64,000 bases of DNA, from assembly GCF_000012505.1 (NCBI RefSeq), contig NC_007513.1, forward strand, positions 1,798,001 to 1,862,000, in the 5' to 3' direction. Position 1 is the first letter of the stretch. Each line of letters begins with the position of its first letter. Both the position numbers and the translations under genes were made by a program. The notes beneath the pieces were generated by a model, which saw only the letters and a program-made list of their open reading frames with translations, was not told where the DNA came from and searched no databases. Below, piece by piece: positions 14,059 through 27,755 of this stretch. The DNA comes from Synechococcus sp. CC9902. Lineage in GTDB: Bacteria; Cyanobacteriota; Cyanobacteriia; PCC-6307; Cyanobiaceae.

Positions 14059-14364
14059 ATGCTTGATTATGGGAAGCAAATTAAAGCCTGGATTCGCTCG
14101 CAGCATTTGATATGCGACGGGACTGATTTTATTTTTGAGACTGTTGATCAAACACAATTAGAAAAATTTGAACTTTGTATTGAATCTATGGGGGGAAAAG
14201 TCCGCGCAATCAAAGCTGTTGGCAATTGGCCAATGGGTCTAAATCGATCCTTCAAAATCTTAAGAGCAATAGCCAGTGTTCCACGCCCAGGCGGAGAAGA
14301 GTTCGTTACGTATTGGGCGAAAAAAGGAAACCATCAAACGCGTTACTCGGAAATCAACAGCTGA
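14059..14364 (+). CDS. cpeR: Phycoerythrin gene activator CpeR
   Basis: A 101-residue protein starting MLDYGKQIKAWIRSQHLICDG, a clear CpeR. The ATG follows directly on the cpeT stop, so translation is probably coupled. CpeR is required for expression of phycoerythrin genes in green light in Fremyella. Its sequence shows no classic DNA-binding motif and its mechanism is unsettled. In this strain its likely targets are cpeC-mpeD-cpeE and cpeBA, by analogy. The gene converges on the reverse-strand Nif11-like gene with 2 bases between stops. Confidence 0.93.
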   Translation: MLDYGKQIKAWIRSQHLICDGTDFIFETVDQTQLEKFELCIESMGGKVRAIKAVGNWPMGLNRSFKILRAIASVPRPGGEEFVTYWAKKGNHQTRYSEINS

Positions 14365-14366
14365 TT

Positions 14367-14588
14367 TTATTCATCAAACCATCCCATCCATGTTGGTTTT
14401 GCAAAGTCGGTGTGCTTGCTCCATTTTCTTAGAATTGCCAAAGAATCCACTGCAAAACCATGACGTGCTGCAATGGAAATCACCTCATCTTGATTTAAGG
14501 CACCTTTGATTTCATCGCGAAGATTGTCATCTGTTCTAGCCAAGGCAATGAAACGCTCGAGGAGTTGATCTTGTTCTAAATCAGACAT
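14367..14588 (-). CDS. Nif11-like small protein (73 residues)
   Basis: The product fits the Nif11 (nitrogen-fixation-11-like leader) domain: LLERFIALARTDDNLRDEI, then a short variable piece, then DEVISIAARHGFAVD. After the domain comes a tail with KPTWMGWFDE. The family in marine picocyanobacteria includes leader peptides of lanthipeptides (prochlorosins), but this tail has no Cys and no Gly-Gly cleavage site, so it is not an obvious natural-product precursor. It is the last of three reverse-strand genes sitting between cpeR and mpeY. The function is unknown. Confidence 0.7.
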   Translation of the reverse strand: MSDLEQDQLLERFIALARTDDNLRDEIKGALNQDEVISIAARHGFAVDSLAILRKWSKHTDFAKPTWMGWFDE

Positions 14589-14623
14589 AAGAACAAATAA
14601 CTAGTTTGCAAAGATCGCTGGCT

Positions 14624-14920
14624 TTAGGCACTTCCATCGCCAGCACCATCCATCAGCATAGCCCTCCAAACTGTGTGTTGTCGAAATGCCCACGACCAGT
14701 GAGCTGGGTTCGCAGACAGAATTGATTGCTGAATTAAGTCTGACTGAAGCTCAAAATCCTGATTAATAAGGGTATTCCACTCACTCTCGGTGAAATCAAA
14801 CCCTTGGCTTTGGCCAAAAGCAATAATCTGATCATGACTAGACAGTGCTTTGAGTCCTGTCGCTAACTCATGAAATCGGACCACATCATTTAAAAAACAA
14901 TTTAAAGCCTCGATTGACAT
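14624..14920 (-). CDS. Second Nif11-like protein (98 residues)
   Basis: Starts MSIEALNCFLND (ATG 14920). The domain reads as FLNDVVRFHELATGLK followed by HDQIIAFGQSQGFDFTESEW, a good Nif11 fit, then a tail with NPAHWSWAFRQHTVW. Its start codon overlaps the stop of the upstream reverse-strand gene by one base (TGATG), so the two are coupled. No modification enzyme such as LanM or a radical-SAM enzyme is encoded near it in this window, which argues against a ribosomal peptide product. Confidence 0.7.
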   Translation of the reverse strand: MSIEALNCFLNDVVRFHELATGLKALSSHDQIIAFGQSQGFDFTESEWNTLINQDFELQSDLIQQSILSANPAHWSWAFRQHTVWRAMLMDGAGDGSA

Positions 14921-15240
14921 CAACAACTCTCTATCCAGATCGCAAAATTAGCCTTCTTACAGATAAGTTGCAAGACCAATGGGCCACCGGTACAACGCAA
15001 CAAACGCCAAGGCATTGCCTGAGCTGCCACACCGGAATCTACGAGAATCTTTGGGGGTCTTGTCGCTTGTTCAAGGGGAATTAATGCTGCCCCTGTGAGT
15101 GAAGACTCGACAGATTGAACAACAACACGCAGCTTCTCTAAATCGTCAACATCATTCAAATCATCCTGAACCTGAGTATTACCACACATGGTGTCAACGA
15201 AGCGTGACAGTGCCAATTCAGCTTCAGCTCCGACAGGCAT
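14920..15240 (-). CDS. Small protein of unknown family, first of the reverse-strand trio
   Basis: A 106-residue protein. Its N-terminal part (ELALSRFVDTMCGNTQVQDDL, then DLEKLRVVVQSVESSL) has the same hydrophobic pattern as a Nif11 domain but is too diverged to be sure. The C-terminal part (about 60-106) is hydrophobic with two cysteines (LLRCTG, LICKKANF). It is translationally coupled to the Nif11-like gene that follows. It is divergent from mpeY, with about 150 bases between them that must hold both promoters. Confidence 0.6.
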   Translation of the reverse strand: MPVGAEAELALSRFVDTMCGNTQVQDDLNDVDDLEKLRVVVQSVESSLTGAALIPLEQATRPPKILVDSGVAAQAMPWRLLRCTGGPLVLQLICKKANFAIWIESC

Positions 15241-15399
15241 CTCATACCAGCTGTTGGATAGAGATTAACAGATAAAACTCTTCCGCATTCATCACCTCAG
15301 AAAAATGAAATGCGACTGTGTCCACACCAAGGATCTGTTGTGGCGAAAGGGCCTTTCTACCTGAAGTGCTAATTTTATACACTGGATTCGGTGATGGTC

Positions 15400-16596
15400 A
15401 TGTCTGAGAGATTTGACATTTTGTTTGAAGGAATGCCAGAGGAAAAAGCATTATTGTTATTAACGACAAACCCTGACGATCTTCCCAATCCTGTTGACAA
15501 ATATATGGCGGCAACCAAGCTTGCTGCTTGCCAAAGCGAACGCTCTTTAGAGGGATTGATTGCAGCCGTACAACTCGATCCTGAAAACCTCATCAACAGA
15601 ATCACACGCAGAAAAGCTCTGGAAGCGCTCGGCCGCAGGAAAGACGAGAAAGCGCTACCGAGCTTATTCAGTGCGCTGCGTTTCAATGACGAACCTTCAG
15701 TGATCAACGCGCTTGACTCGATCGCGCAGATCGGATCCCCACTCACCGCAGACCAAAGCGATCAACTCCTTGAGGCACTGCAAAGCAGTGACAACCAAAA
15801 GCGATCGGCGATCCAAGCTCACACTCGGCTCAAGCTTTCAACGGGGGAAAAAGCAATCTCAGCCTTTGAGAACGATGAAAATCCCTTGGTCGCTGGAGCA
15901 GCCCGGGCCTACACCGCCAAAGTTCTTGGGAAGGTTGAATCCCTTGAGCCGCTAGTCAAGCAACTCACTGATCCCGTCGCGGGACGACGACGATCAGCTG
16001 TGATCGACCTTGGCGACGCTGGAGATGCCAGCTTGCTGCGTCATCTGGTCACTTGCCCAGTCTCAATGCCGTTGAGGGCAAAAAGCGCCTTTCAGCTGGT
16101 CGATCCCGAGAAGAGTGGTCTAATCCCTGACGACTACATGGGCCTCCTAGAGCAACTACTACGAGACGACCCTTCCACGCTCGCTTTACAGAACGATTGG
16201 ATTTGTGAGGGGGAAACTATTGAGATCGAAAAGAATCTGCAACATCGCGATGAAGGCAAGCAATACGGCGGTGCACTAAGCCTGATGAGGATGCAGAAGC
16301 AACAACAAATTGATGCGATTGAACAGATTCAGACCAAGCATTGGAGTGATTACGGCGCGAACTACCTCTTGACATCGGTTATTGGACTTCAGAAAGTTGA
16401 TGAACACAGCAATCTGGTCCGGACAGCACTTGCTGAAACACTGCCGCAGTATGCAAAGTCGAGGGTTGCAGCGGCCTGGGCTTGTCTGAGCCTGAACCTC
16501 TCAGACCAAGTCGACTTACTCAGGGAGATCCAGATCGAGAGCAAATGGACACCCCTTAGATGGAGCTGCGAACGGGTACTTCAACAGTTGTCATAA
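15400..16596 (+). CDS. mpeY: Phycoerythrin II alpha-subunit bilin lyase MpeY (or MpeQ allele)
   Basis: A 398-residue E/F-type bilin lyase made of HEAT-like helical repeats, starting MSERFDILFEGM (ATG 15400; ATG 15394 and GTG 15391 are also in frame). The place just before mpeB-mpeA is that of MpeY, which attaches phycoerythrobilin to MpeA Cys83. The allelic MpeQ occupies the same place in blue-light specialists and isomerises the bilin to phycourobilin. I cannot tell the two apart by eye. The closest relative in the window is CpeY (20.7-22.1 kb). About 190 bases separate it from mpeB. Confidence 0.8.
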   Translation: MSERFDILFEGMPEEKALLLLTTNPDDLPNPVDKYMAATKLAACQSERSLEGLIAAVQLDPENLINRITRRKALEALGRRKDEKALPSLFSALRFNDEPSVINALDSIAQIGSPLTADQSDQLLEALQSSDNQKRSAIQAHTRLKLSTGEKAISAFENDENPLVAGAARAYTAKVLGKVESLEPLVKQLTDPVAGRRRSAVIDLGDAGDASLLRHLVTCPVSMPLRAKSAFQLVDPEKSGLIPDDYMGLLEQLLRDDPSTLALQNDWICEGETIEIEKNLQHRDEGKQYGGALSLMRMQKQQQIDAIEQIQTKHWSDYGANYLLTSVIGLQKVDEHSNLVRTALAETLPQYAKSRVAAAWACLSLNLSDQVDLLREIQIESKWTPLRWSCERVLQQLS

Positions 16597-16655: not shown

Positions 16656-17324
<669 letters not shown>

Positions 17325-17367: not shown

Positions 17368-17865
17368 ATGAAGTCCGTCATCACCACCGTGGTCGGCGCA
17401 GCCGATAGCGCTTCCCGCTTCCCTTCTTCCTCCGACATGGAGTCAGTTCAGGGTTCAATCCAACGTGCTGCTGCACGTTTGGAAGCCGCTGAAAAGCTCT
17501 CCCAGAACTACGACGCCATCGCCCAGCGCGCTGTTGACGCCGTCTACGCCCAGTACCCCAACGGTGCAACTGGCCGTCAGCCACGCCAGTGCGCAACTGA
17601 AGGTAAAGAGAAGTGCAAGCGTGACTTTGTTCACTACCTGCGTCTGATCAACTACTGCTTGGTCACCGGCGGCACCGGCCCCCTGGATGAGCTGGCTATC
17701 AATGGCCAAAAAGAGGTCTACAAGGCGCTCAGCATCGACGCTGGCACCTATGTGGCTGGTTTCTCGCAGATGCGCAACGACGGTTGCGCCCCTCGCGACA
17801 TGAGCCCACAGGCTCTGACCTCCTACAACACCCTGCTTGACTATGTGATCAACTCACTGGGCTGA
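17368..17865 (+). CDS. mpeA: Phycoerythrin II alpha subunit
   Basis: A 165-residue class II phycoerythrin alpha subunit. Three bilin cysteines are visible: Cys75, the extra site that separates MpeA from CpeA, Cys83 ([10 protein letters not shown]) and Cys140 (NDGCAPRDM). Cys83 is the site whose bilin differs between green- and blue-adapted strains. The gene ends with a strong terminator, so mpeBA forms its own highly expressed unit. Confidence 0.97.

Positions 17866-25661: not shown

Positions 25662-27755
<2,094 letters not shown>

Follow-up and report, generated by a model that had tools for sequence, protein, structure and literature searches.

Phycoerythrin-II (PEII) is among the main light-harvesting pigments of Synechococcus in the open ocean, and the placement of its many bilins is still being resolved lyase by lyase. 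Proteins of the Nif11 family are usually read as leaders of RiPPs, where the leader brings the modifying enzyme to the peptide joined to it. Within the PEII region, the closest described system is the unk7-unk8-unk9 cluster. In the passages that treat it, Six et al. 2007 (PMC2246261) reported the Nif11 motif (PF07862) in two of the three genes, naming it for Unk7 and Unk8 only, a restriction to PEII strains, and a fusion in WH7803 only; the PEII link and a two-subunit idea were drawn from 11 genomes, with CC9902 included in Table 4. Those passages contain neither sponge symbionts nor a link to pebAB, both of which are present in this analysis. Part of a further paper (PMC5318389) refers a single time to Unk7, Unk8 and Unk9, calling them conserved hypothetical proteins. 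The second described system is Unk10 of the colour-acclimation islands, in which Humily et al. 2013 (PMC3877281), in the section concerned, reported a Nif11 domain; a 2024 paper (PMC10904595) still calls it, where it is introduced, a protein of unknown function. Full-text literature, with subscription papers mostly outside, was searched for links between Nif11 and phycobilisomes, phycoerythrin or pebB, as well as for the names unk7, unk8 and unk10, and no function, biochemical or mutant data were found. This was in line with the first-pass annotation of the DNA, which knew of no described function for Nif11 proteins in phycobilisomes.

The DNA analyzed here, referred to as the window, is the whole stretch of 64,000 nucleotides, and its genome is one contig of 2,234,828 bases. 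The features of interest, in window coordinates, were the following:

14059..14364, plus strand: cpeR, neighbour, 101 aa, tail-to-tail with unk7 (no Pfam match)
14367..14588, minus strand: unk7-type gene, 73 aa, Nif11 domain at residues 10-48 and a conserved Trp-rich tail, LR.WS..TDF...TW.GWF (PF07862 E 1.6e-7, 42-sequence alignment, dN/dS ~0.1)
14624..14920, minus strand: unk8-type gene, 98 aa from the ATG at 14920, Nif11 domain at residues 1-48 and a conserved C-terminal motif, HWSWAFR....WRAMLM (PF07862 E 1.6e-11, 43-sequence alignment, 9zn4 match)
14920..15240, minus strand: unk9-type gene, 106 aa, probable diverged Nif11 helices at 3-44 and a predicted five-strand beta domain at 50-102 (profile and orthologue evidence, model)
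15391..16596, plus strand: mpeY-type bilin lyase, neighbour, HEAT repeats, head-to-head with unk9 (name by place and tree)
16710..17324, plus strand: mpeB, PEII beta subunit, neighbour (PF00502 E 1.4e-50; name by place)
17368..17865, plus strand: mpeA, PEII alpha subunit, neighbour and the PEII marker in this analysis (PF00502 E 1.7e-43; name by place)
26245..27752, plus strand: pebA and pebB, stop-to-stop frames 26245-26982 and 26955-27752, about 11 kb from the trio (similarity to PebA and PebB of genome G049)

The names cpeR, mpeY, mpeA, mpeB, cpeY and cpeZ are those we take to apply here from place and tree. The trio is flanked by cpeS-cpeT-cpeR and mpeY-mpeB-mpeA, and the CpeS, CpeT, phycobilisome-protein and HEAT-repeat domains were confirmed with Pfam. 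As the annotation had proposed, the three minus-strand reading frames at 14367-15240 form a coupled unit between cpeR and mpeY: unk9 and unk8 share a single base, unk7 starts 35 bases after unk8, and two bases lie between the stop codons of unk7 and the cpeR frame. The dN/dS of the trio genes was 0.09-0.29 against two close relatives; for two further, more divergent relatives, saturation of dS prevented a ratio. Given the three frames in place, the Nif11 evidence, the tight coupling and the low dN/dS, unk7, unk8 and unk9 look like real, constrained genes. An alignment of the unk9-mpeY intergenic region from 10 genomes showed no clear promoter motif. The trio is the published unk7-unk8-unk9 cluster, with the same row of three short genes in the PEII sub-region, two of them carrying PF07862, and presence in PEII strains only; the cluster, its motif and its PEII restriction have thus been known since 2007. 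The text of Six et al. leaves the order of unk7 and unk8 ambiguous, and the name unk7 is applied here to the PF07862 gene adjoining cpeR. The searches and passages covered here gave no earlier account of Unk9 as a Nif11 protein or of its beta domain, nor of how often unk8 and unk7 are fused, of an orthologue in sponge symbionts or of linkage to pebAB.

Next, the profile search that the first-pass annotation had proposed was performed. PF07862 (curated cut-off 23.8 bits) matched Unk7 with 31.9 bits (E 1.6e-7) and Unk8 with 44.8 bits (E 1.6e-11), and the two proteins singled out as clearly Nif11-like were indeed so. The window's own Unk9 (106 aa) gave no PF07862 match at E<=1, and that of G049 gave none at E<=0.1, which counts against a Nif11 assignment. 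Orthologues of Unk9 from sponge symbionts matched the same family at E ~1e-10 to 1e-12 (41-49 bits). At a lenient E<=1, PF07862 was found in 36 of 64 Unk9 family members, eight of the 36 being sponge symbionts, and any other family recurred in four at most; moreover, the Unk9 N-terminus aligned with the Unk8 profile (hhalign probability 63, E 7e-5). Because of these orthologue matches, lenient matches and profile alignment, Unk9 is most likely a diverged Nif11 protein. The suggestion of a third member with a similar pattern was therefore borne out through the relatives of Unk9, although it has no PF07862 match of its own. The Pfam side matches of Unk9 members (E 0.015-0.3) were taken as chance. 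Profile matches to PDB chain 9zn4, a Nif11 leader, had E 4.8e-6 for Unk8, 3.2e-4 for Unk7 and a weak 0.5 for Unk9, this being the only PDB sequence match of the latter. The predicted structure of Unk9 contained three helices (3-44) and five strands (50-102), with pLDDT 92 and pTM 0.85. No Foldseek match at E<=0.001 was obtained, and the other fold-comparison results tied at Z ~4 (profilin, PAS), too low for use; the beta domain thus appears to be a conserved, confidently modelled one with no clear structural relative among PDB folds. The model of a natural Unk8-Unk7 fusion consisted of two helical domains linked by a disordered joint, and its weak pTM of 0.45 means that it gives nothing firm on Unk8/Unk7 pairing. 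Its Unk7 half compared to 9zn4 gave Z 4.0 (rmsd 2.6, 57 residues), a value so low that it may reflect a common arrangement only.

The distribution of the trio was then assessed in 400 genomes of the family, with thresholds of E<=1e-4 for Unk8 and E<=1e-30 for MpeA-like proteins. An Unk8 match was present in 61 genomes and an MpeA-like protein in 193. The MpeA matches, split by hand on identity, fell into 60 genomes at >=82% (two of them as contig-end fragments), 11 at 75-76%, and 122 whose best matches were weaker, as for PEI or Prochlorococcus phycoerythrin. All three genes were complete in 59 of the 60 close-MpeA genomes, and in the 60th (G317) the contig ends inside mpeY; that no function was found in print for so constant a gene set, almost two decades after its description, marks a clear gap. 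The Unk8 match in G317 (E 7.8e-5, 36% over 58 residues), found on a different contig, was judged another Nif11 gene and left uncounted. Among the 329 genomes that lack an MpeA-type gene, not one had an Unk8 match. The first-pass annotation had linked the genes to phycoerythrin by their fixed place, with presence versus pigment type as a check and a scattered distribution as the contrary outcome. The trio was not scattered and tracked MpeA, so that in these 400 genomes the link held for PEII, but not for phycoerythrin in general. The place was also stable, as the trio was tail-to-tail with cpeR in 57/59 genomes and head-to-head with mpeY in 53/59, five having no intact mpeY at the locus and one having it 3 kb away; the unk9-unk8 spacing varied from -7 to +6 bases. 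In 15 of the 59, unk8 and unk7 formed a single frame, with Unk8 first and a variable joint. Twelve of these 15 (L066-L070, L072, L073, L077, L079, L081-L083) lacked an mpeC-type linker immediately after mpeA, where most genomes with split genes have one, and L064, L071 and L075 departed from this pattern. For the alignments, duplicates and G309 rows with X were dropped, as were L044 and L092 (Unk9), L078, L092 and L106 (Unk8), and L064's Unk10 and L092 (Unk7). Carriage of the trio by phages was rejected, since pattern scans of viral contigs gave no relative of Unk7, Unk8 or Unk9 and 50,697 phage records gave none of Unk8.

Ten of the 11 genomes in the 75-76% MpeA band share one genus label (g8) and are Candidatus Synechococcus spongiarum-type sponge symbionts; the eleventh is G049. 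The presence of mpeBA in Candidatus Synechococcus spongiarum, and the position of this lineage as sister to the other picocyanobacteria, are stated in the pertinent part of PMC6363710. The sponge symbionts at first appeared to be PEII genomes without trio genes, and this was overturned by Unk9 searches, which found an orthologue in eight of the ten, the remaining two being 72-73% complete. In each of these eight, Unk9 was the sole Nif11 match (E<=0.01). There was no recognizable Unk7 or Unk8 in the sponge symbionts, and these two proteins are therefore not needed for every PEII. In all eight, unk9 lies behind pebA-pebB, the genes of phycoerythrobilin synthesis, within about 40 bases in seven and after about 300 in L122, whereas in the window they are about 11 kb apart; NCBIfam names PebA and PebB in L115, and PebB also in L122. 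In G049, pebA-pebB-unk9-unk8 follow one another directly, and an MpeY-type gene lies about 3 kb off. No Unk7-9-like frame was found within up to 1.5 kb either side of pebB in 26 PEI-only genomes and three PEII genomes of the usual type. An MpeY-type lyase was on the unk9 contig in four of the eight sponge symbionts (L114-L117) and was found on another contig in others, e.g., G008 and G149. In a lyase tree whose root is for drawing only, the MpeY-type sequences from six sponge symbionts and from G049, which are of unusual composition, grouped as a single clade (100/100) inside the Mpe lyases and separate from CpeY (100/100). Given the orthologues and this clade, Unk9 would date back at least to the ancestor that the sponge symbionts have in common with the other picocyanobacteria, barring a later transfer. 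Across the phylum, the Unk9 profile (E<=0.001) matched at least 22 of 386 sampled genomes, in many of which only 12 first-look candidates were scored; among the matches listed, 18 had a full-length Unk9 and the other four matched only within positions 3-64, the Nif11 part. Two Unk9-bearing Synechococcus-like contigs (L137, L146) were in records titled Deltaproteobacteria bacterium UBA6967 and Prochlorococcus marinus MIT 9215 bin.404, and are perhaps mis-binned or mislabelled.

Collectively, these data led us to propose, with a probability of about 0.58, that the products of unk7, unk8 and unk9 are small Nif11 proteins of a non-RiPP kind, which would act together as accessory factors in the making of PEII. 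Unk8 and Unk7 would pair with each other, as suggested by the natural fusion, and would work with Unk9 as a complex helping phycoerythrobilin to reach, or attach to, MpeA/MpeB, or the loaded subunits to assemble. Docking on a subunit or a modifying enzyme may be the task of the Nif11 helices, and holding the substrate that of the conserved C-terminal regions. The unk9-pebAB linkage in the outgroups points to bilin supply or attachment, and the mpeY linkage in free-living strains agrees with this. If the accessory role is true, the Nif11 family gains a role in primary light harvesting, and the outgroup pebAB link with the single sponge-symbiont Unk9 offers a minimal version for testing.

A strict partnership with MpeY is unlikely. 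Five genomes (L045, L049, L051, L053 and L065) keep the trio with no intact mpeY between mpeB and unk9; their gap of 1.0-1.3 kb gave no MpeY match in four (tblastn E<=1e-3) and a 65-residue piece in L065. The idea of the trio as a partner of MpeY alone was therefore rejected. The same five genomes carry another Mpe-type lyase elsewhere, 47-50% identical to MpeY and falling in the MpeZ clade in the two that were placed in the tree.

The co-occurrence with PEII and the gene order would look alike for helpers of enzymes, for regulators and for components of the rods. Exchange of the PEII region between lineages is among the points discussed by Six et al. (PMC2246261), and the region may be inherited as a block; if so, co-occurrence and gene order overstate the independent evidence. 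A role of the trio in regulating PEII genes or light-color acclimation, as small signalling or anti-activator proteins beside CpeR, with the related Unk10 beside FciA/FciB, would explain the constant position adjoining cpeR. According to the section on Unk10 in PMC3877281, this Nif11 gene lies in a color-acclimation island with regulators, and like the trio it joins a Nif11 N-terminus to its own C-terminus; it is placed near an MpeZ/MpeW-type lyase. It differs in its C-terminal part and its location outside the trio, and is absent from WH7803 in the data of Six et al. that cover it (PMC2246261). The window's genome has 10 Nif11 matches in all, and one gene fitting the Unk10 description (G000:C1:1514004-1514135; L006, L165) lies about 3 kb from an mpeZ-type lyase. 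Regulation is nevertheless unlikely, since the Pfam search gave no DNA-binding domain in the trio, the stretch examined around unk9 in the sponge symbionts and G049 contained no CpeR-like frame and placed the gene with bilin synthesis, and WH7803, which also has the trio, is given as pigment type 3a and is unmarked as a chromatic adapter in Table 4 of PMC2246261.

A bolder form of the accessory role, which we regard as speculative and doubtful, is that the Nif11 domain serves as a leader in trans, separate Nif11 proteins bringing PebB and MpeY/MpeZ-type enzymes to the PEII subunits. On this view the set would have begun with Unk9, no later than the divergence of the sponge symbionts from the remaining picocyanobacteria, and Unk7, Unk8 and possibly Unk10 would have joined it during the diversification of pigment types. 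That the proteins are instead minor structural parts of PEII rods, such as small caps or linkers, seems quite improbable: their small size, conservation, PEII-only distribution and, for Unk9, a compact domain modelled with confidence would suit such parts, but Pfam gave no linker family match and the outgroup pebAB linkage fits biosynthesis better. No phycobilisome linker was among the fold matches listed, where a missing entry excludes nothing.

Finally, the trio shares the Nif11 helical domain with RiPP leaders of this type (TIGR03798; prochlorosins; the MppE leader, PDB 9zn4), and differs from them in having no LanC-like or YcaO enzyme, no variable core and, in Unk7 and Unk8, no double glycine. 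Unk8 passes the TIGR03798 leader model (36.1 bits, cut-off 32.3), whereas Unk7 stays below it (27.6 bits) and Unk9 gave no match. In the part relevant here, a genome-mining paper (PMC10783134) names a Nif11 cluster close to photosynthesis genes among possible precursors, and a pass such as that of Unk8 may explain why genes of this kind are included. The enzyme classes covered by the search were LanC-like, YcaO and C39. LanC-like and YcaO proteins were each found in 0/16 genomes, the window's included; a C39 peptidase was found in just two of the 16 (G024 and G115, both trio holders) and in none of the ten sponge symbionts. The whole genome of the window thus had no LanC-like, YcaO or C39 match, extending the earlier remark that no modification enzyme is nearby. 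Conservation of the C-terminal compared to the Nif11 half was 0.58 vs 0.56, 0.83 vs 0.67 and 0.81 vs 0.53 in the three families. The annotation had also seen no cleavage site and no Cys-rich core, which was right for Unk7 and Unk8 (GG in 0/42 and 0/43 sequences) but not for Unk9, where GG was found in 56/56 sequences and the window copy has three Cys in the C-terminal domain; these GG and Cys sit in the predicted beta domain, modelled as a folded sheet, not behind a leader. Most tests therefore speak against RiPP precursors, as LanC-like and YcaO enzymes are absent from the 16 genomes and the C-terminal parts are conserved, unlike peptide cores, which makes this reading very improbable and warns genome miners not to count the trio genes as natural-product precursors. 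Two other Nif11 proteins of the window's genome (L002, L005) carry PGEY close to their C-terminal end and in this resemble group F (GEYH/N), an unexplained group in the corresponding part of PMC10783134.
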